This document shows positions 9,361-49,691 of a stretch of DNA of 64,000 nucleotides, piece after piece. The notes below the pieces were generated by a model. That model did no database searches and was not told the DNA's origin. It saw only the letters and a program-made list of their open reading frames with translations. The stretch lies in the NCBI GenBank assembly GCA_949130485.1, contig OX422188.1:3348222-3412221 (forward strand), in the 5' to 3' direction. Origin of the DNA: Agelas oroides. Its lineage: Eukaryota; Porifera; Demospongiae; Agelasida; Agelasidae. Within the stretch, counting starts at the first letter, position 1. Each line of letters opens with the position of its first letter. The translations under genes were made by a program, and so were the position numbers.

Positions 9361-10600
9361 CTCATTACATAGCCATTTTCGCACATGCTGAGTTTTGTAG
9401 TGTGCAGAATAATATTATGTACTGATCCTAAAAGCAATACGTTTTCAAATAGATCTGAGCTTCAGGTACAACATTTTTTGTCCAGTTTTTAACACATGGA
9501 GAGATTGAGAAGCATATAGGTAAAAATGCCTCAGCCTGTGTATTACACCTCAAATGGAAGAGTAAAGACAAGCTACCAATCTGCAAAAAGCTAGGAACAT
9601 GTGTTCCTTTCAAACCCCTCCTAACTTGAGGTATGACCAAGAGTGTTAACACTTCAGTGACCACTCGTCTATCTTGACTGCAGCTGTGGAGGCCTGTAAA
9701 ATGCCTTAGGCATAAACTGTTAACAGATTACATCTGTTCTTGAGTAGCAAATTATCAATCATGTACAGCCACACCAAGTTATAGATTGTACAAGTCAATT
9801 CGCTATCTGTATACATTTTCCGAAACAGAGCAGGCCGGATAGAGCTAGCTGGAACACCACCTTAAAGTACCAAGGGTTGAAAGTTGATCGAATAAGTATC
9901 TTCCCATTAAAGAAAAAAAAAAACAGGCGTGAGATCCAGCCTGGATTTGAGCCTGGGCCTTCTGAATTCAGGTCAGATGCTCTTACCAACTGAGCCACTA
10001 GTGGAGCAGAGGATATAGTTGGTATATATCCATAGGCTTAGTTCAATTCTCTGGCTGGATCTCTGGTAGGCATTGGCTCTGCACAGTAAGTACCAAAGTA
10101 CTCTTTGCTGCCACCAGCAGGGTTTGACAGGGGTTTTATGTCAATGGATGTGCAGTTTGAGATCTATAGCACTTGTACATGTGAATGGCATACAGTGCTC
10201 CAGAGCAAGAGAGCCAACTTTATGTTTATTACTACATTTACGAAGTGTTTCTCAAATCAGTTCACTAAGTGAAACCATATTGACACATTTTGGTCACAAT
10301 GCAAAATTTGACTTCTCACAAGGCTGTATAAGCACTGTATGCTATTCATAAGTGCTATTACTCTCAAATTGTACACCGCTCTGGAGCACTGTAATTTGCA
10401 CTCAGCTTTACCTTATGCATCTAATAGCCGTTCACAATTTTCTGCAGTATCCTGTAAACTTGTATAGTGTACTGTCAACTTAGCAGTTTAAGTTTATAAA
10501 TAGCATGTTTCCTTGTACTATTGGAAGTAATTATAACTATCCCAAACTCTACTCAAAAACACATGCTAATAATTAACACAAGTTGATTGCTTAACTACTG
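9361..10600. other. Intergenic region between kinase-Kelch and fibrinogen-like genes
   Basis: Apart from the tRNA-derived repeat at 9936-10005, I see no coding region, strong inverted repeat or clear polyA signal. It is AT-rich with short ORFs only. Confidence 0.4.
9936..10005 (-). repeat. tRNA-derived sequence (pseudo-tRNA or SINE head)
   Basis: On the minus strand there is a good A box (TGGCTCAGTTGGTAAGAG), a 5-bp anticodon stem (TCTGA/TCAGA) and a B box (GGCTCAAATCC). The putative acceptor strands do not pair and position 33 is C rather than U. It is followed on the minus strand by a T run. I read it as a tRNA-derived repeat, not a working tRNA gene. Confidence 0.55.
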
Positions 10601-19590: not shown

Positions 19591-19876
19591 GCCATGTGTG
19601 TGAGTCTAGCAGGTACACAGTCTTTAACAGCAATCCCGACCTGGTTAACCTCTCGTCACCCTTTACATTCGAGGGATAGATCCTCTTCGTCAGTATTCAT
19701 GGGAAGCGTGCGAGAACCATTCGAGACTCTATAACGAAGTTTTCGAGAGTAGCTCGAAATAGCTTCACAATGCCATTTTCACGTCCATGAGTACTAGAGC
19801 ATGCGCGCCGAGGGTTAAAAATGTACTAACAATTATACTAGGTAGATGCAGGGCATCATGGGGCAAGCCTGAGCTG

Positions 19877-19911
19877 GTTAGGGTTAGGGTTAGGGTTAGG
19901 GTTAGGGTTGG
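19877..19911. repeat. Interstitial telomeric repeat (TTAGGG)n
   Basis: Five consecutive GTTAGG-phase units of the metazoan telomere repeat, located exactly where homology of the Helitron ORF ends. See findings. Confidence 0.9.
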
Positions 19912-21440
19912 AAACAATGTGGGGAAGGCACATGAGATGTAGCCCTCAGTGCTGAATTCATTGATGGGTGTTAAGCCACTGGGAGGCCATGACACTGTGG
20001 GAGGAGACACTGGCTGCTGGTGAGATTGTCGCTCTTGCACAGACTGTCTGACTGTCTCCTCTTCAGTCAACCGCTGAGTAGTGTTGGGCACAAACGATCC
20101 TGAGAGATGGGCATCATAGGGGTCCACATCTTCGACAGATGGTGCTTCACTGTCATCAGCAACAGAGTCGAGTGTCACAGACCTCAGGCCAGTCAAATTT
20201 CCATCCTCTGGTAGTAGAGCAAGGGCATCACTATTGATCTGAACACTGCAATAATACTGGTTGTTGGCGAGTAACCACTGAAGTGCAGCAAGCACTACAG
20301 ACCTCCTGACACGAAAGTCATGATGGGAGTCAGCAGCTCCTTGCTTCCTCACAACAATGATGTCAAGTTCAGTGGGCAATCGTGGCAGAGAATTGATGAA
20401 AGAGGCCATGTCTTGTGGCAGGTTGATGACGTGTCCACTGTATGCGTACTGCCCATGAGGTAGTCGGTACAGTGACATGATTGGTAGCACACCAGAAATC
20501 AACATTTCTTCCACTTGTGTTAATCCCTGTAAGAAGGAACACATATCAGTTACATAGGATGACATAACAGTAATATTATTACCAACCTGCAGTTCAGATA
20601 GTAAGAAGGAACACATATCAGTTACATATAGGATAACATAACAGTAATATTATTACCAACCTGCAGTTCAGATGGTATAGGGCCAGGATCCATGTTGTTG
20701 GCAGAGGAGTATAACTTCGGTATATGCTTGTCCCGGCTACAGCACAGACACTCAGCAGACCCCAAGTGAAGGTGAAGACTAGGAAAACTCTCCAAACAGG
20801 TGGTACATGTTGACAGATCTAGCGTAGCGAAGTGTGCATGAAACTTATGCATCTTAGCTCGAATGGAATGCTGTTCAAACAGTGGGAGCTGTGACTGCAC
20901 AAGCTGTTGATCTCTGTGCCTCTGTCTGTCACACTGTAACCTGACCTCTCTCTCCTCGGCAGTCTCAGCTGCCAATCTCTCATGCTGGTAAGTACTCATA
21001 TGCTGCAGCCTGGCCTCTCTTTCCTCGGGAGTCTCAGCTGCCAATCTCTCATGCTGGTAAGTACTCATATGCTGCAGCCTGGCCTCTTTTTCCTCGGGAG
21101 TCTCAGCTGCCAATCTCTCATGCTGGTAAGTACTCATATGCTGCAGCCTGGCCTCTCTTTCCTCGGGAGTCTCAGCTGCCAGCCTGTCCCTTCTCAGCTG
21201 CAGCCTGGCCTCTCTCTCCTCGGCAGTCTCAGCATCCAGTCTGTACCTTCTTTGCTGCAGTCGTGCCTCCCTATCTTCGGTAGCTTGTGAAGCCAGCCTA
21301 GCCCTGTCCCTCATTCTCCGTTTTCTCAACCTTTCTTCCCTTTGCTCCGCTGTCTCGGAAGCACGGCGGGCCCTCTCTCGTTCTCTCCGACTCCGCAACC
21401 TTTTCTCTCTCTTCTCTACTGATTCTGGGTTAGTATCCAT
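19910..21440 (-). pseudogene. Helitron-type N-terminal ORF, truncated
   Basis: Read on the minus strand. Exon A runs from the ATG at 21440 down to 20661 (260 codons, phase 0). It starts MDTNPESVEKREKR, then an Arg/Glu-rich charged region with tandem units of the form LAAETPEEREARLQ, then a Cys-rich segment (CTTCLESF, CLCCSRDK). Exon B starts at 20526 (GLTQVEEMLISGVLP) and matches the DUF6570-like region that precedes the Helitron-like N domain in sponge and other animal Helitron proteins (YRLPHGQYAYSGHVINLP, FINSLPRLPTELDIIVVR). It ends at FPTLFPT, the first residues of the Helitron N region, where telomeric repeats begin. Rep and helicase domains are absent. The intervening intron carries a 73-bp tandem duplication that copies the end of exon A. 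I see it as a dead fragment. Confidence 0.75.
20527..20672. repeat. 73-bp tandem duplication across exon end and intron
   Basis: 20527-20598 and 20600-20672 are near-identical, both holding GTAAGAAGGAACACATATCA and CCAACCTGCAGTTCAGAT. The duplication gives two copies of the exon A tail and two possible splice donors on the minus strand. Confidence 0.8.
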
Positions 21441-22535: not shown

Positions 22536-25500
22536 TCAGATGCATTGAAGTTCAGAGATGGCCAAGTCAATGGGAGGTGGCGACTTGGCAGCATGACCAC
22601 AGCTGGAGCGAGCTCCCCTGATACATTGAATGGCTGAGCGGAGAAGAGAGAAAGTCAGATGACAGCGTAGCCAGGACAAGGTGGAGGAGTACGACTGGTC
22701 CCATTTCATAGCTAGACAAGAAGCAAGTCTTTTGTAGAAAACTGTGGCTTCATTTGCCATACCTCCGGTAGCTGAGAGAACTAGTGGGGTAAAAGAGGCA
22801 TGTTCTACTTCTCTGACTCTCTGCTCGTACGCACGTTTCTTCAAAGATTCTTGCTTGCGGTAACATGAAGAGAGGCTGGATTGCCGGTTGGAGGGGGCAT
22901 ATGGATTGAAAACTCGGACGTCAAAATAAGTTCTTTCGAACCTGCCTCCCCAGAAGCCGTTGGCAGCAATGTCTAGGCTTGCACCATCTTGGACATTAGA
23001 TGAGGCACCAGTGAGAGATTCACCAGTGATTGGTTGCAATTCTGGCTCAATACGGACATCATTGCAAACCTCTGTTAGAAGGTTGGCAGTTAGATCTCTG
23101 ATTTCATTGTGTCTTATTGAGGGGAAGCCTCCTTTGGGACAGGAGAGAGCATGTTCTACAGAGAACTTGGCACTGCAGCCACATGTTGATGGAGTGCGCA
23201 GGGGCTGCCAGTTGTATCTGAGGGCAAGTGCATCATAAAAAGCCCCTTTGTGGAGTGCAAAGCCAAATTCTTCAATCGGCAGAGAGGTTAGCCAGGATGA
23301 GGCTCCCTTTTCTTGGGCAAGATCCATGGATCACTTGAGGGAGTGGTTCAGGGATTCTTTCAGTTGCTCAGAGACTTGTCTAGCAGAATCTCGTTTCAGT
23401 TTGTGTACTTCCTTTTTTGTCTCAAGTTGGCAAGTGATTACGTCTTCAGGGTACTGAAAGTCTTGGTGGAGAATTGCTTCTGTCAGAGCTTCAGTGATCT
23501 TGGTGGAGTAGAGGAATTCGGTATCTGTGGCTTGAGTAGGATTGGACAGAGCAATGCCTCCTAGTCTGGCTGGCAGTGTAAGGAGTTCACGCTCAGTTTC
23601 ATTCGGTGGAGGTCTGCCTGTAAGTGCAGGGATCAGCTTGGTTCTAATGATGGTTTCAAGTGGTGAGAGATTTGGGCCAATGCCAGGCATCGTGCGGGTG
23701 AGATAAGTCCACTTGCTTGTCATCCCGTGAGTGAAAGCTGCGTGTGCAGCATGAGGTTGACTGCGTGCAATAGATGCCAGCTGCTCTAGTTCTCCAGCCC
23801 ATTGTTGGATTTTGTTGGTCACAAATGCTTGTATGTAGTCCTCTGTACCAAGAGCTGCCCCAAGGTAAGGTCTGCCCTCTGAGGGGACTTTTACATCTGT
23901 GTCAGCGAAAGCCTCTACTGCAGTAGAGAGACAGTTCTCTTTGGTGACAAGCCAGGTCTTGCTTGCGTTGGTGAAATAACCGAATTCAGGGCCTAGAGCA
24001 TTGAGTTGTTCCCACCACTCACGTAGTCTGGTGATCTTTCCAGCACCAGAAGCATCATCAGCATACCATACTTGAATTACATCACTCACACTGTCTTTCA
24101 AATTCCTGATCAAGGGAATGGTTGCCAAGGCGTACATTGACATAGCCAGTGGGTCCCCCTGAGTGGTTCCTTCGCGAGATAGGAGTACACCTCCGTCTAC
24201 GTACAGCTCAGAGGGGGCTCTGTAGGTGTTGATGAGAGCAGTAGCAAGGGAGGGGCAAAGTCTCTGGATGTTGTGTAGAGCTGTTTGTCTGTTAAGGGAG
24301 TTAAAGGCGTTACTGGCGTCAACTAATAGGAGAGCTTCAGTTTCTTCTCTGTGAAACAGGGTGCGAACAGCATGCACAGCTGCCTCAATGCCTGAAATCT
24401 GACCTGCACAGAGTTGTACAGAGCCGGCTACTTCTTGTATGTCTTGTCTTGTGATGTTTAAAATGGCTTTAGCAATGATGCGTCTAGCTGTGTCACCGAT
24501 ACCGATGGGCCGAACACCAGGGTTCTTGTCTAGGGCAATGAGGTGGCAGGCCATGAGAGGTGCAATGCTTACTGGATCAACAAATTCTGTGCAGAGGCGT
24601 TTTGCTGTCAAAGCAAGGGACTGGCAAAGCTCAAAGGATGCTGTCTTGAACGAAGTGCATAGCCTTCTCCATCCATGTGCGTCGAGACCAGAGGGTCCAG
24701 CTGCTCCGCTGGTGTACAATGCGGCAGATCTAATCGCCGCAGCATCCAGAGATTCAAACAGAACAGGGTGAACATCAGATTTCCATTAATAGCAGAACGT
24801 TAGCATCCGTAAGCTATACAGTGATTTATACGGTTAGGGTGGGGTTAGGGTTGGGTTAGGGCTGGTATAAATACCGTATAGCATACGGACGCTAACATTC
24901 TGTCGTTAACGGCTTGTTGAACATCAGGGGTGTCATCGTTAATGATTGCGTCATTGTGTACTGGTTGACATGGAGGGTGTTTCTCCAGAAGGATGTCCCT
25001 CACCTTTCTTTGTCCATTCTCAGTTTCAATAGGATCATCCACATGGAGAACACCTCCCTTACTCTGTTCAGAGAGGAGGCGAAGTGCCGCCTTGGTCTTA
25101 CCCTGGAACATCAAGTTAGCGAATGAGCGAGAGATTTGTTCATTGTTGAATGATGGCGAAGTCTTGGAAATGCGTTGTTGTATTGTTCTCCCCTCTCTCA
25201 ATAATTCATTCAGGTCTCCCTCTCGCCAGGTGTCTAGTCGTCGTTCAAGGCATGTGATGTGGTCTTTGGCTTTTGACTTGCGGGCAGGCTTCTGGAGTAG
25301 GAGAATAGGCATGAGTGTAGCTGCTTTCAGAGCAACAGACTCGAGAGCAGAGCTAGTGGCAAAAGCCTTAAATAGTCTGGCTAGCTCAGAAACAAATGAC
25401 TTCCCTGCTTTCCCATAGGGGACCTTGAAGAGATTCATCTTCCAGTGCACAGCCTCAGCAAAGGCAGCGTTGAGGTTGTCAGTAAACTGTGTTGAGTCAA

Positions 25501-43770: not shown

Positions 43771-44115
43771 GAATTCTATGGGGTGTGATTTGTGCCAAAT
43801 TTCACAGGCACAGTGTGCAGGCACAACTTGCCATCATGTGAGCACAGAATGCCAACATGAGGGCACAATATGCATGCACAACATGAGGGCACAACATGAG
43901 GGCACAACATGAGGGCACAATATGCATGCACAACATGAGGGCACAATATGCATGCACAACATGAGGGCACAACATGAGGGCACAACATGAGGGCACAACA
44001 TGCATGCACAACATGAGGGCACAATATGCATGCACAACATGAGGGCACAACATGCATGCACAACATGAGGGCACTATATGTATGCACAACATGCATTCAC
44101 AACATGCAGGCACAA
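43771..44115 (+). repeat. Left arm of a foldback: unique 80 bp plus minisatellite (GCACAACATGAGG)
   Basis: It begins GAATTCTATGGGGTGTGATT, then a minisatellite of GCACAACATGAGG and longer TGCATGCACAATATGAGGGC units. It is repeated inverted at 49292-49691. Confidence 0.85.
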
Positions 44116-44249
44116 CATGAGCATGACGGCACAAAACCATTGCTGAAAAAAACAAAACAGACACCTCTGTGTAAATTCATGTGTTAAGAGTGCATGAACA
44201 ATCAACGAACCACATCTCCCTTATAAAACAGGCCTAGATGTTATGCAAA

Positions 44250-44312
44250 GTCACCCACTGCGCAGGACGCGTTTCGGCCAATACCAGGCCTCATCAGCTG
44301 CGCTGGGGTGAC
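44250..44312 (-). ncRNA. Hammerhead ribozyme (type I)
   Basis: Minus strand, same strand as the Penelope-like ORF. Core CUGAUGA at 44297-44291; stem II GGCC/GGCC (44290-44287 and 44279-44276) with loop UGGUAUU; GAAA at 44275-44272; minimal stem III AC-GC-GU; C17 at 44266, so predicted cleavage falls between 44266 and 44265. Stem I is closed by GCGCAG with CUGCGC (6 bp), an internal loop CA/AGU, and GUCACCC with GGGUGAC (7 bp). Every universally conserved core base I know is present. In Penelope-like elements such ribozymes process the RNA or mark pseudo-LTR ends. Confidence 0.85.
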
Positions 44313-44315
44313 CGG

Positions 44316-44640
44316 GAGATGGGGACTGCCATCTCATGCACAGAATGCAGTCAGGTGGCTGGCCTTATTCAAAAGTCGGTAGAGACTCCTCGAAAGCACC
44401 GTCTCTTCGTGCAGCTGTTCTTCGTGCAGCTGTCTTTCGTTCGAAGGTCTTACGTACGTAGCGATTGATCGTCACGTGTTATCGACGCGTGCGTGCGCGC
44501 GCGCGCATACAGAGGCACTGGAGGTACCGGAAGTATTGTTAATAAGGCACAAGGCAAACAGTGTAAGGCAAACAGTGCGTGTTTAAAGGCTGTGTGTGCA
44601 TAAATGTGCCAAGCCAAGTAAACTGCATGTTCAGGCTGCG
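44316..44640 (-). other. 3' region of the Penelope-like element
   Basis: Between ORF stop and ribozyme. It contains a GCGTGCGTGCGCGCGCGCGC run near 44488-44507 and a duplicated TTCGTGCAGCTGT at about 44407-44430. No ORF of note. Confidence 0.5.
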
Positions 44641-47619
44641 TTAAACAGTAGCTATGGCAATGCATTCAGTAATAATGTTTTTCAGGCACCTCCCGTACTT
44701 CTGTAAAGTCCTGGGGTAGCGATGCACAAAGGTCTTGTAGGTGCTACAGAGTTTTTGGTATACGTATCCCTGTCTAAGTAATCTGGTTGTGAGTAGTTTA
44801 GATCTGTAAACAAAATCTTGGTAATTACAACATATCCTCAAATATTGAACTAACTGTGAAATTACTACTCCGTATGCTGGTTTTGAGGGTATGTTGCTAT
44901 CCATGTGTGGAAAATTGACTATTGAAAAGTTGAAGGCATCCCTCTTATCATACAAGTCTGTGCAAAACTTACCATTCAGGACATTAATGTTAAGATCCAG
45001 GTAGGAACAGCTGTCATGGCTCTCTGTAGTTTTCTTAAGCTCTAATTCTGGGGGGTAAATTTGGCCTATGCATGCTTGAAAATCAGGGTTGTTAAGTGTA
45101 AGCAAGTCATCAATATATCTGCAAGTATTACTAAATTTAGCTGCTACAGAGAGGTCAGTCCGGATTAGGGATTTCATAAACTCAAATTCATAGGAGAAAA
45201 GCAATAGATCCGCAACTAATGGAGCACAATCAGTACCCATAGGGATGCCAATTGTTTGTTGGTAGACAGCTGATCCTATCTGGATGTATATGTTGTCTAT
45301 CAAGAAATTGAACATCTCAACTAACTGGTTCACCGTTAAGTTACGGGTATTAGCTACAGGTCTGGAAGTCCAGTAAGCATAATCTTTTCCTAAGGCCATG
45401 TGGGAGGCATCTCTGGTATTGTATGCATTTCTAATTAACTCTTCCATGCGTGTTTTGAGCTGACTATGGGGGATGTTAGTATAGAGTGTACTGAAATCAA
45501 AGCTATCCAATGCTTTTGCGTGTCTCAACTTTTCTAGGGTGTTAGTCACTTCAGTGGAGTTGTTAATGACCCAAAAGCAGTTTACCCCGGTTCTTCTTTC
45601 TATACCATTGCAATATTCCTTGTAATGTTTAAGTATCAGCTGGAGACAGTGGGTAAGCAGCTTAGATAAAGGTTTGGTTGTGCAGGAGGCAGAAGCTGCT
45701 ATAAAGCGATGTCCATAGGGATTTTTGTGTAGTTTAGGCATCCAGTAAAAACCAGGCAATCTCTTCATGTCTTCTGCTACTTTAACCTTTGTGCTATGCA
45801 TGTATGCTAAATGTTTTTGTACAATCTGGTCTACAGAATCCCTACAGTGGACATATGTAGATGCTTTCCCACTCTTTCCAGCTAGTTCGTTTCTAATCAC
45901 CTCAGTGTAGTATTTCTTACAGACTATGATTATGTTATTGCTAGCTTTATCTGCAGGTACCAGGACATATTCGTTGTGGAGTTCCCGGAGGGCTGTCCTA
46001 CACCTAGTGTCTTTCAAAACTTGTCTTTTTCTTGTTTTATGTCCCCGAGACTCGAGACGTTTGATGTTCTTTTCAATAAGGAGTTTCACCGTACACGCCC
46101 ACTCATTGAGTGTGCACGGGTCTACTCCCTCTCTAGAAGCCCACATATTTCTATAATCGTGTACTCCCTCCATGCACAGTTTCAGACACAGATCCCAGTT
46201 GATATTATTTTGCTCTCTAAAATTAGGGCCTTTTTTGATGAGGTGTCTAAGTTTCCTATTGGTTATGATGCTGAGGTCACCGGTGACCACATGGCCTAAA
46301 GGCTGGTAAAGAAAGGCAGATGAACTGCATTTGCAGGTTGTGCAGTCGTTGCTGGATAGGTTAATGCTCTCTGTAACTTTTTTAAAGTTGAAGACTGAGG
46401 GTCCTATAGTCTTGGTATATTTGTAAGAAACCGTTGGGGGTTCGTTATGCTCAAAAAACACTGGGATCGTGTCCTTAACTTGCCTGGAACGGAGTATCCC
46501 GCTTAAGTTGATCATTTCGATGCCTTTGTTATGGAATTTTACTTTCAAGAAATGTTTACGGTTATTCTCTTTGGTATGCTGTTTCGGAGGCTGAGGCTGA
46601 GGCTGAGAGGAACCTAGTCTAAATTTGATCAAATCCTTCAAAATCAGAAGGAGATGAGTAGGAAAGGTATGGAGATGGAGTTGTTCCTCAACGAGTGTCC
46701 TGGTATCCCTAAGAGAGGTATTTCTAAGCCCAAAAATTGCACTAATGTATTTATGTAGAAAAGACATGGATTTGTAATCACCAAGTTTGTTTTTAAGCCA
46801 ATCACGAGGGTTAGTGGGTTTTTTTGTATTCTTGCGACTGGGTCGTTTTGATTTTCGCTTCCTAGTTTTAGAATGCTTGTTAAAAAACTTCCAGACTATA
46901 AGCTCGTCGTTTTGCTTGGAGATGTTCCCGACACCACGAATGTTGTCATTCAGGCCGTATGGGTATACAGTCTTAAGCTCTCTAATCCAGAACTCTTCTC
47001 TTTCTAGACGTTTTGAGTAAGTACTAGTTTGTTCGTTTGGAGCTACTACAATGCTTTCGATAGGCTGAACAAACATGTCTTCGAGTCTATGCCCGTCAGA
47101 TGTAAAATGCTTGTATAAAAATTGAGGCTTCAGGCTTTTAATGTTGGCTCTATGGTTGTTCATTCTTTTCCTCAAGGCTTGACTTGTCTCTCCTACATAT
47201 TGTATGCCACAGCGTTGACAGGTAACTAAATAGACAACATTCGAGGTGCTGCAAGACCAGTCTCCTGAGCCTATAACTTTGTACGTTTTTCCGGTGACAC
47301 TGCTTCTAAACATTGTGTCAGGCTTAAAAATAGGGCATGTAAGGCAATTCTTGCGGTTACATTTGCTAATGCTGTTCGGTCTTCGACGCTGCTGGGATCT
47401 GGGATCGTTCGTGGCACTGGTGCATGACAAACCTGTGTCTTCTTGTTGAGTCTTCGAGGTGCTAGCATCAACAAGAAGAGGCACACCTCTAACCTCCTGC
47501 ACAGTCTTCGAGGTGCTAGCAATAACTACACTCGGCACACCTCTGACCTCATGTAGGGGACCTTGTTGACCCGGGCGACGTCCCAGCCGGTATGAATTTT
47601 CTTTTTGGACACTCATCAT
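44641..47619 (-). CDS. Penelope-like retroelement polyprotein, N-terminal GIY-YIG then RT (Naiad-type order)
   Basis: Minus strand, 992 residues, uninterrupted; ATG at 47619 (a second ATG follows). Residues 25-60 are two copies of an EVRGVP...ASTSKT unit. A zinc-binding C-x4-C-x2-C (C87, C92, C95) leads into a GIY-YIG nuclease: NVVYLVTC (Y130), YVGET (141-145), LRKRMNNHR, then REEFWIREL (E209) and GLND (N224). A Lys/Arg-rich linker follows, then C-x2-C-x-C (C426, C429, C431), the short CxC segment. Reverse transcriptase: PADKASNN (about 555-562), WMPKLHKNP (about 626-634), motif A FDFSTLYTN (D708), motif B GIPMGTDCAP (791-800), motif C YIDD (835-838). Canonical EN+ Penelope elements carry GIY-YIG after the RT; the reversed order with a CxC link defines Naiad/Chlamys-type elements. 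All catalytic residues I can check are present, so the protein looks active. Confidence 0.9.
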   Translation of the reverse strand: MMSVQKENSYRLGRRPGQQGPLHEVRGVPSVVIASTSKTVQEVRGVPLLVDASTSKTQQEDTGLSCTSATNDPRSQQRRRPNSISKCNRKNCLTCPIFKPDTMFRSSVTGKTYKVIGSGDWSCSTSNVVYLVTCQRCGIQYVGETSQALRKRMNNHRANIKSLKPQFLYKHFTSDGHRLEDMFVQPIESIVVAPNEQTSTYSKRLEREEFWIRELKTVYPYGLNDNIRGVGNISKQNDELIVWKFFNKHSKTRKRKSKRPSRKNTKKPTNPRDWLKNKLGDYKSMSFLHKYISAIFGLRNTSLRDTRTLVEEQLHLHTFPTHLLLILKDLIKFRLGSSQPQPQPPKQHTKENNRKHFLKVKFHNKGIEMINLSGILRSRQVKDTIPVFFEHNEPPTVSYKYTKTIGPSVFNFKKVTESINLSSNDCTTCKCSSSAFLYQPLGHVVTGDLSIITNRKLRHLIKKGPNFREQNNINWDLCLKLCMEGVHDYRNMWASREGVDPCTLNEWACTVKLLIEKNIKRLESRGHKTRKRQVLKDTRCRTALRELHNEYVLVPADKASNNIIIVCKKYYTEVIRNELAGKSGKASTYVHCRDSVDQIVQKHLAYMHSTKVKVAEDMKRLPGFYWMPKLHKNPYGHRFIAASASCTTKPLSKLLTHCLQLILKHYKEYCNGIERRTGVNCFWVINNSTEVTNTLEKLRHAKALDSFDFSTLYTNIPHSQLKTRMEELIRNAYNTRDASHMALGKDYAYWTSRPVANTRNLTVNQLVEMFNFLIDNIYIQIGSAVYQQTIGIPMGTDCAPLVADLLLFSYEFEFMKSLIRTDLSVAAKFSNTCRYIDDLLTLNNPDFQACIGQIYPPELELKKTTESHDSCSYLDLNINVLNGKFCTDLYDKRDAFNFSIVNFPHMDSNIPSKPAYGVVISQLVQYLRICCNYQDFVYRSKLLTTRLLRQGYVYQKLCSTYKTFVHRYPRTLQKYGRCLKNIITECIAIATV

Positions 47620-48900
47620 GGTTTGGGTTCGAGCTAGAGGGGTGTGTGGCTCAAGCCGCTCGAGGAAACCGAGCCAACGTTACCTAGTAAAACACGTGAA
47701 GCCGGGGTACCCACAGGGGCGCCACCAGACACAAACACGTAAACTAGGCATATGCACACTGGACGTATGAATAGTGTCCAGTTAGTACAACCCAAATAGG
47801 TAGACATTCAAACAAACTCCTCAATAAGGTATCAAAAGTTGACAGGGAAACACAGTGGTAAACATTTTCAAGTAACTGGTTCCAAAGTGATTAGGAACAC
47901 ACGAGTGTAAGTAACTGCTAATGTGCATAAACAGCTGATACAACTGTGTGCTGTTGTGACTTCAAGTACATATATACTGTATACGATATTGGAAGGTATC
48001 AGGTTGTTCAGGCATTTGGTATGCCATGGTTAAGCTTGAGTATTCAGCAGTGTTAGCATTTCTCTCATTGCCACCACCTGGGAAATTCTCCTTTGATCAG
48101 TACATAAAGATGGGGTACAAAGGTATACAAAATGAGCACTAACAACAAACAAACCTGTCTGAATGGGACTGTAAGAGAGTTTGAAAGAGACTGGAAGCAA
48201 AGCTGTCCCACTGGGACTGCGAGAGAGTTCTACTCTGCTAGGGACTGTGACAAGACTCGTGCAAGTGACACAAGACTGTGCTCTTCCCCAAAGGGGTGTG
48301 CAGCAACACAGTAATTGTTGGGGTGTCCCACCTGTTTGTCCGCTGAGCTGTGAATTGCTGCAGCTGTGAGAGGGCTTGACGTTGACTCAAGTCATGGCAT
48401 TCAAATTAGAAATGAAAGGATCTAAAAGCTGTGACCATGTTGTATTTTCACCAGGAACATGTATTAAAGTTGAATGTTATGACAATGACATCTACCAAAA
48501 CTTGACAAAGACTTTTTGGTTCGTGTTTTTCCACTCCCTAGCAGAGTAGAACTCGCTCACAATTCCCAGAGGAGGTGCGACACAGTCTTCAGGTTCTGAA
48601 GAGTAGCCTGGTGCACCAACATTCCAAGGACTAGAAACTGTCAATACAAGAATCAGGACGGTGCTGCAGGCATCTCACCAGTCAAAGTAAAATTGCACGC
48701 TTTTGTGACCCCTGCTTATGTAGCTGTTGAGAGCTAGATGAACAATGGTGATCGCTCGCAACCAAATTGGCAACTTCATTCAGCATGGTCAAAAATACCC
48801 CCAAATTTGAGTAAACCTAGCAGGCTAGAAGCTTCTGATGCCCAGAAATCGATGAACACAGTGGGGCTGGGCAGCAGGTTAGCAATTACAGGATCATGTG
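47620..48900. other. 5' flank of the Penelope-like element
   Basis: No second ribozyme and no copy of the 3' region were found here, so a 5' pseudo-LTR is not evident. GAGAGAGTTTGAAAGAGACTGG and a related GCGAGAGAGTTCTACTCTGC block lie near 48172-48240, with an inverse CTAGCAGAGTAGAACTCGC near 48538. No gene recognised. Confidence 0.4.
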
Positions 48901-48909
48901 TTAATGTTA

Positions 48910-48990
48910 TGACATCATGCATGCACAATATGAGGGCACGACATGCATGCACAATATGAGGGCACGACATACATGCACAACATGAAATCA
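48910..48990 (+). repeat. Short array of the same minisatellite
   Basis: Two to three units TGCATGCACAATATGAGGGC, same orientation as the left arm at 43771. Confidence 0.75.
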
Positions 48991-49291: not shown

Positions 49292-49691
49292 AAGTGATGT
49301 GCCCTCATGTTGTGCATGCATGTTGTACCCTCATGTTGTGCATGCATATTGTGCCCTCATGTTGTGCATGCATGTTGTACCCTCATGTTGTGCATGCATG
49401 TTGTGCCCTCATGTTGTGAATGCATGTTGTGCCCTCATGTTGTGCCCTCATGTTGTGCATGCATGTTGTGCCCTAATGTTGTGCATGCATATTGTGCCCT
49501 CATGTTGTGCCCTCATGTTGTGCCCTCATGTTGTGCCTCATGTTGTGCATGCATGTTGTGCCCTCATGTTGTGCATGCATATCGTGCCCTCATGTTGTGC
49601 CCTCATGTTGGCACGCTGTGCCCACATGATGGCACGTTGTGCATGCACACTGTGCCTGTGAAATTTGACACAAATCACACCCCATAGAATT
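49292..49691 (-). repeat. Right arm of the foldback (inverted minisatellite plus unique end)
   Basis: Reverse complement of the left arm: CCTCATGTTGTGC units, then the unique end reading inward from GAATTC at 49686-49691. The arms differ in unit number. Confidence 0.85.

Follow-up and report, generated by a model that had tools for sequence, protein, structure and literature searches.

Penelope-like retrotransposons can carry a GIY-YIG endonuclease (EN) on either side of their reverse transcriptase (RT). In Naiad, the GIY-YIG domain precedes a telomerase-like RT and is joined to it through a CxC linker, which is a trait of N-terminal-EN Penelope-like elements, and the endonuclease possesses a CCHH motif that is not known from Chlamys. 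Naiad elements also form tandem units with pseudo-long terminal repeats (pseudo-LTRs), undergo 5' truncation and are in some cases inserted beside short repeats, whereas Terminons and Athena elements are not known to have an endonuclease. N-terminal-EN elements are said, in a 2021 abstract by Craig et al., to be without canonical hammerhead motifs. The present analysis concerns an element on the reverse strand of a 64,000-nucleotide stretch of DNA from the sponge Agelas oroides (contig OX422188.1), hereafter the window, that shares these traits of Naiad but, unlike Naiad as described, bears a hammerhead motif in its pseudo-LTR. With a probability of about 0.9, it is a young, multicopy N-terminal-EN (Naiad-like) Penelope-like retrotransposon with an integral, conserved minimal type I hammerhead in the pseudo-LTR.

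The hammerheads of Penelope-like elements have been reviewed as minimal variants that lack helix III and are possibly dimeric (PMC6155905 and PMC7761336), and the latter describes their role as unknown. The element PAc of Anolis, a canonical Penelope/Poseidon element, resembles the sponge element in its tandem pseudo-LTRs, its pseudo-LTR hammerhead and the internal initiation with target homology that is proposed for the sponge element, but the endonuclease of canonical Penelope/Poseidon elements is C-terminal and that of the sponge element is N-terminal; furthermore, the PAc hammerhead overlaps the start codon, whereas that of the sponge family ends 185 nt ahead of the next open reading frame (ORF) in tandem locus L008 (for PAc, PMC11167929). 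Animal non-LTR retrozymes likewise combine a type I hammerhead with tandem units, but their RNAs are ~170-400 nt long and non-autonomous (PMC7229834), whereas the unit in the window, at ~3.56 kb with a 992-codon ORF, encodes its own enzyme and is not a short non-autonomous unit. Terminons and Athena elements differ in being giant and located at telomeres (PMC12477314 and PMC7761336). Searches of the open-licence literature brought up no hammerhead reported for permuted or Naiad elements.

Domain order and phylogenetic position

A preliminary description of the locus, made from the sequence alone, had claimed an intact 992-codon ORF in which GIY-YIG is followed by CxC and then RT, and this order is borne out by the ORF list, Pfam and a sequence alignment (Table 1). 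Pfam detects both domains, although the RVT_1 match, at 23.4 bits, lies below the cut-off of 29.6. The GIY-YIG domain contains C134, C137, H156 and H171, which on our own reading we take to be the published CCHH motif, together with Y141, R152 and E208. C134, C137 and H171 are invariant in the alignment and H156 is nearly so, and the CxC cysteines, C429 and C431, are invariant in 29 aligned sequences. A database search returned 128 protein matches, among which the relatives P0004-P0018 stand at 46-61%, and relatives down to ~30% identity share the N-terminal endonuclease, the CxC motif and a YIDD-type RT. The predicted structure has a predicted local distance difference test (pLDDT) score of 83, with residues 1-80 unreliable, and telomerases account for 17 of its top 18 PDB fold matches, at query-length template modelling (TM) scores of ~0.2-0.3; a search of the PDB by sequence gave no match. 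A further trait described for N-terminal-EN elements as a class is an insertion in the fingers domain.

To place the RT, a phylogenetic tree of 47 rows was built, three of the 50 chosen rows having been dropped for want of the slicing motif. The tree splits into two groups, with the window protein and 35 rows standing apart from 11 C-terminal-EN rows at a Shimodaira-Hasegawa-like approximate likelihood ratio test (SH-aLRT) value of 100. Domain order was taken from Pfam matches with E values of 0.1 or less. In 31 of the 35 rows that group with the window protein, the RT part is preceded by GIY-YIG; the remaining four (P0002, P0003, P0005 and P0033) lack a GIY-YIG match and owe their place to kinship, and by sequence P0002, P0003 and P0005 are closely related to the window protein. 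All 11 rows of the other group have GIY-YIG at their C-terminal end, with a match of only E 0.04 in P0120. The window protein groups with N-terminal-EN proteins; none of the rows is labelled Naiad or Chlamys by name.

The tree also speaks against a swap, one of the explanations offered in the preliminary description, if this is taken to mean that a canonical C-terminal-EN Penelope with its own hammerhead had its endonuclease relocated to the N terminus. Such an origin has in its favour that canonical elements are known to bear hammerheads. The RT itself, however, falls among N-terminal-EN proteins (SH-aLRT 100), the alignment with N-terminal-EN relatives extends from endonuclease to RT down to ~30% identity, and the window protein does not show the canonical Penelope arrangement of GIY-YIG C-terminal to RT. 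The swap is therefore ruled out by the RT tree and we regard it as extremely improbable.

Hammerhead motif

Read by hand on the reverse strand, the hammerhead at 44312-44250 has the sequence GUCACCC / CA / GCGCAG - CUGAUGA - GGCC UGGUAUU GGCC - GAAA - CGCG - UC (cut) CUGCGC / AGU / GGGUGAC. It possesses the features of a type I hammerhead, namely CUGAUGA, GAAA, stems I and II and UH ahead of the cut. A hammerhead ~0.33 kb 3' of the ORF stop on the same strand, with CUGAUGA, GAAA, a 4-bp stem II and a 6+7 bp stem I, had been proposed earlier; its pairs hold on checking, and the hand-read motif yields the same predicted cut site. The two-pair stem III proposed with it fares less well. Within one molecule the stem III sequence, ACGCGU, can form at most two pairs, closed by a 2-nt loop, but it is palindromic and pairing between two molecules is possible, and a more fitting reading of stem III is a minimal palindrome through which two ribozymes could pair with each other. 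A scan with a strict motif (CTGATGA, GAAA, stem I of at least 5 pairs and stem II of at least 4) finds only this site in the window and none in 150 dinucleotide shuffles of the 64 kb on both strands, and the shuffles also give none with stems of 4 and 3 pairs. Therefore, the hammerhead is no chance match. A second ribozyme copy upstream within the window was looked for and none was found.

Three results count against a functional hammerhead at this site. The Rfam check suggested in the preliminary description returns Hammerhead_HH9 as the best match at the site (44313-44243, 23.2 bits, E 0.021 in 5 kb), but this is below the HH9 gathering score of 52 and the motif is absent from a gathering scan of the window; in our view the low score comes from a stem III that is very short. 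Minimum-free-energy folding gives a structure with a mispaired core a lower energy (-30.9 kcal/mol) than one with the hammerhead core open (-28.5 kcal/mol). Finally, a constrained co-fold of two copies gave no inter-copy pairs with a program that cannot pair two closed loops. The hammerhead would quite probably cleave itself in vitro.

Linkage across the genome

The source genome (259,295,671 bases in 141 contigs) was searched with the ORF, which gave at least 49 match rows (46 of 513 candidates scored), and so the counts are lower bounds. Loci were cut for 30 rows, including two pairs of tandem neighbours (L008/L033 and L011/L027); the other 19 rows represent 16 loci, four rows falling in one locus, and ten of the 16 were read, with 6 outside the linkage count. 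The hammerhead motif lies 3' of the ORF and on the ORF strand in 30 of 30 fetched matches. Its distance from the ORF stop, the constancy of which was to be checked according to the preliminary description, is 318-339 nt in 28 of them; the remaining two have distances of 198 and 286 nt. Over 71 nt, the ribozyme is identical in 23 fetched copies, and the other seven each have a single T-to-C substitution, which lies in the unpaired internal loop. The motif is also present in all ten further loci, giving 40 of 40 examined: six of these loci, L067 and L068 among them, carry the exact 32-nt core pattern at the correct place and strand, and the remaining four are L046, L066, L069 and L070. Nine of the match rows cover residues 1-992 and the rest start or stop at varied places, and most fetched copies are ~99% alike.

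These counts bear on whether the ribozyme instead belongs to a separate non-autonomous repeat, such as a retrozyme or a dispersed minimal hammerhead, that merely flanks the copy in the window. Minimal hammerheads are described as dispersed in many animal genomes (PMC7761336), and the hammerhead pattern has 463 matches genome-wide, against 8 for a reversed control pattern, which exceeds the number of ORF match rows. Among the part of these places that was listed, about half are identical to the window core and most others are near variants. A surplus of ribozymes is, however, what 5' truncation predicts, and the scored 3'-end matches (40 of 3245 candidates) each span the ORF stop to an identical 3' end. 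Moreover, the ribozyme accompanies the ORF in every match examined, at a near-constant distance and within tandem units, which argues that it belongs to the element and to no flanking repeat. The flanking-repeat reading is ruled out by this linkage and is scarcely credible. The predicted ribozyme is an integral part of the element and lies in the pseudo-LTR, and at the level of sequence the identity of the element and its linkage to the ribozyme appear close to certain. The claim that both features coexist in one element is thereby sustained: neither ORF copies without the ribozyme nor a ribozyme of another repeat, which had been named in advance as refuting it, appeared among the 40 matches.

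Other hammerhead-like cores occur in the genome. L071 (G000 C2:18143150-18143700) has a core with a shorter loop II and matches the 3' part of the element at 82% over 98 nt but has no matching 3' arm of stem I, and is a diverged relative of the element 3' end. The cores of L072 (G000 C1:20149950) and L073 (C2:12386342) have a different loop II and no similarity to the element, and are possibly other ribozyme families of this genome.

Conservation of the ribozyme

Five diverged copies (L036 and L067-L070) were compared with the window copy, gaps being uncounted. Differing sites number 10/355 in the ribozyme, 107/1479 in the 3' untranslated region (3' UTR) and 3/235 in the tail that follows the ribozyme (47 nt measured). 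The ribozyme differs from the 3' UTR at a Fisher p of 0.0015, and without CpG sites at a p of 0.0018 (4 versus 66 differences); on the three copies chosen outside the earlier hammerhead list, p is 0.0047. In all these tests the sites within a copy share ancestry and are hence dependent. The lower divergence of the ribozyme fits purifying selection on the element lineage, although the tail is equally or more conserved, and the ribozyme need not be the sole reason for the conservation.

A hammerhead that is a neutral, functionless passenger, present in all copies only through their youth, is unlikely but has several observations in its favour. Most fetched copies are so alike that their identity carries little weight, the examined 5' ends of insertions leave the cut site unmarked (see below), and the tail is conserved at least as well as the ribozyme, which may partly share the conservation of a 3' recognition region. 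Old copies are also damaged: one stem pair is broken in each of L067 and L069 and two in L070, in which the base following GAAA is changed as well. In addition, PAc elements with mutated ribozymes insert normally in vitro (PMC11167929). Set against this are the smaller number of changes in the ribozyme than in the 3' UTR of diverged copies and the retention of all 71 ribozyme bases by L036, which is ~94% alike overall.

Tandem units and insertion sites

ORF-ribozyme-ORF tandems are present at L008/L033, L010 and L011/L027, and at L015 the upstream unit is cut down to the 3' UTR and ribozyme. All four tandem loci (L008, L010, L011 and L015) share one junction, TTCAT/GCATATGCC. In this layout the ribozyme sits between ORFs and thus in the pseudo-LTR, and pseudo-LTRs, tandem units and 5' truncation are all present in the element family. 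Tandem units differ at 0/2065, 1/2280 and 2/1137 sites in three loci, and it is possible that they were copied from a single rolling template. Two comparisons speak against such a template, as the L015 units differ at 11/420 sites (gaps counted) and for the L027 unit a still closer match is present at another locus, L010 (0/2280).

The 3' flanks of insertions were examined in a set of 45 distinct non-tandem flanks, chosen by their 3'-terminal motif. These open with G in 35, C in 33, A in 36 and T in 26 of the 45 at the first four positions, and GCAT are also the bases that follow TTCAT in tandem RNA. The flanks thus look like the beginning of a following unit, which suggests that reverse transcription starts internally on a tandem or circular RNA, but the flank bases may instead reflect no more than an endonuclease that prefers GCAT targets. 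Some insertions adjoin short repeats.

The 5' ends of insertions were surveyed for a footprint of cleavage, and none was seen among the 40 of 2031 candidates scored. No insertion in this sample begins at the ribozyme cut site; nine starts within 267 nt past the cut are scattered over query positions 18, 65, 71, 93, 108, 136, 145, 151 and 151. Five long rows from query position 1 continue upstream, four being the tandem loci and the fifth, L074, starting 83 nt ahead of the cut. The unmarked cut site speaks against cleavage as the source of insertion 5' ends, and the tandem loci show that some templates were left uncut or were rejoined.

Element boundaries

In sense orientation the unit consists of 5' UTR, ORF, 3' UTR, ribozyme and 49-nt tail, and is 3562 nt long in the window copy and 3558 nt in L008 (Table 1). 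The 5' edge of the window unit matches the tandem junction, and the 3' terminus GTTGATTGTTCAT (window 44194) is common to 43 distinct 3' regions. The observed/expected CpG ratio is 0.83 in the 5' UTR, 0.50 in the ORF, 1.11 in the 3' UTR and 0.74 in the ribozyme, compared with 0.13 and 0.24 in the flanks, and this contrast agrees with the ribozyme being part of the element; within the ORF the ratio is uneven, with single 200-nt bins as low as 0.13.

Table 1. Positions of the element and its parts in the window.
Feature	Position	Strand	Basis or remark
Complete element unit, GCATATGCC... to ...GTTGATTGTTCAT	44194..47755	-	common 3' end, tandem-junction 5' edge and CpG
5' UTR of unit	47620..47755	-	tandem-junction comparison
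992-codon ORF, ATG start, 992 aa, intact	47619..44641	-	ORF list
GIY-YIG endonuclease domain, residues 128-217	46969..47238	-	Pfam
CxC motif linking endonuclease and RT, residues 429-431	46327..46335	-	alignment
RT domain, residues 632-842 (D708, YIDD 835-838)	45094..45726	-	Pfam RVT_1, fold, tree
3' UTR	44314..44640	-	length 327 nt in this copy; most fetched copies have 323 or 318 nt
Type I hammerhead motif, minimal stem III; predicted cut between 44266 and 44265	44250..44312	-	hand reading and Rfam
Conserved 49-nt tail 3' of ribozyme, ending at common terminus TTCAT	44194..44242	-	copy comparison

Minisatellites of 13/26 bp, of the CAACATGAGGGCA type and rich in TGCATGCA, lie in opposite orientation on either side of the element, at 43849-44121 and 49298-49610, the former array starting ~70 nt past the element 3' end; a short piece is found at 48912-48985. 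Antisense to the ribozyme region, 44241-44468 of the forward strand is an open frame with matches (E of 1 or less) to 227 'proteins' in the database, and these are probably spurious predictions that mark further copies of the element in public assemblies.

Other features of the window

Two adjacent ORFs at 22536-24554 on the reverse strand, one with RVT_1 (23334-24554), are likely remains of another retroelement, and neighbouring DUF6570 and STPR-repeat ORFs at 19765-21440 on the same strand are likely part of another mobile element. A tRNA-like match of 40 bits is present at 9936-10001 (reverse strand). The window also contains an astacin-C2 gene, whose nearest named two-domain relative is a Halichondria panicea protein (46%).

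Origin of the hammerhead

The hammerhead could be ancestral, regained or captured, and the family may represent a new clade; the sister families were compared as proteins only. A 3' flank could be inspected in four distant relatives of the N-terminal-EN kind (L001-L004), which have 29-49% identity over the best segment, and no hammerhead was found in any of the four, the nearest support in this analysis for the reported absence. A first scan of a prokaryotic collection returned nothing, and a second returned 6 loci with RT relatives in prokaryote-labelled records, which are probably eukaryotic DNA; no hammerhead is present in these 6 loci, of which only L001-L004 extend beyond the ORF end. A viral collection held no relatives and no match to the one ribozyme pattern searched. 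On these sequences, the element family would be either an exception to the reported absence of hammerheads from N-terminal-EN elements or the first member seen of a larger group.

One possible origin, to which we give somewhat less than even odds, is capture of the hammerhead from a canonical Penelope or a retrozyme of the same host by recombination in the pseudo-LTR. Canonical elements and retrozymes are known to have minimal type I hammerheads like this one, and its absence from L001-L004 is in keeping with a gain. On the other hand, no donor is known, the genome having not been searched for canonical elements, and four relatives at 29-49% identity are few.

Discussion

A mechanism can be proposed in which transcription would run across tandem units, or from a circle, and the endonuclease would open a GCAT-like target. 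The cut target DNA would pair with GCAT at the unit boundary and prime reverse transcription inside the RNA, which would go back through the tail, ribozyme, 3' UTR and ORF and would often halt early. Since the pairing is with the GCAT of the following unit, the RNA must extend past the unit boundary, as a tandem transcript or a circle would; internal initiation with target homology is described for PAc of the anole (PMC11167929). The ribozyme probably cuts tandem transcripts to unit-length RNAs and would do so in pairs because its stem III is palindromic, and the unit-length RNAs may be ligated into circles. As a cut linear unit would have the start site of reverse transcription at the wrong (5') end, inserted copies would derive from uncut tandem RNA or from circles.

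That circle formation is the purpose of the ribozyme is a tentative idea and, on balance, doubtful. Less probable still is a broader proposal in which hammerheads in pseudo-LTRs, far from marking canonical Penelope elements alone, reach both endonuclease-bearing branches of Penelope-like elements and are kept by selection since the ribozyme makes the RNA, circular or of unit length, that serves as template. The GCAT of the boundary would then be read on the circle, the target would pair with the beginning of that very unit, and reverse transcription rolling around the circle would produce tandem copies.

The presence or absence of a hammerhead has so far tracked protein domain order, as far as checked, and a permuted family with a hammerhead separates the motif from domain order. 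Such a family would provide a second setting for asking if tandem or circular templates are what the ribozyme is for, and is relevant to the ancestral versus acquired origin of the trait.

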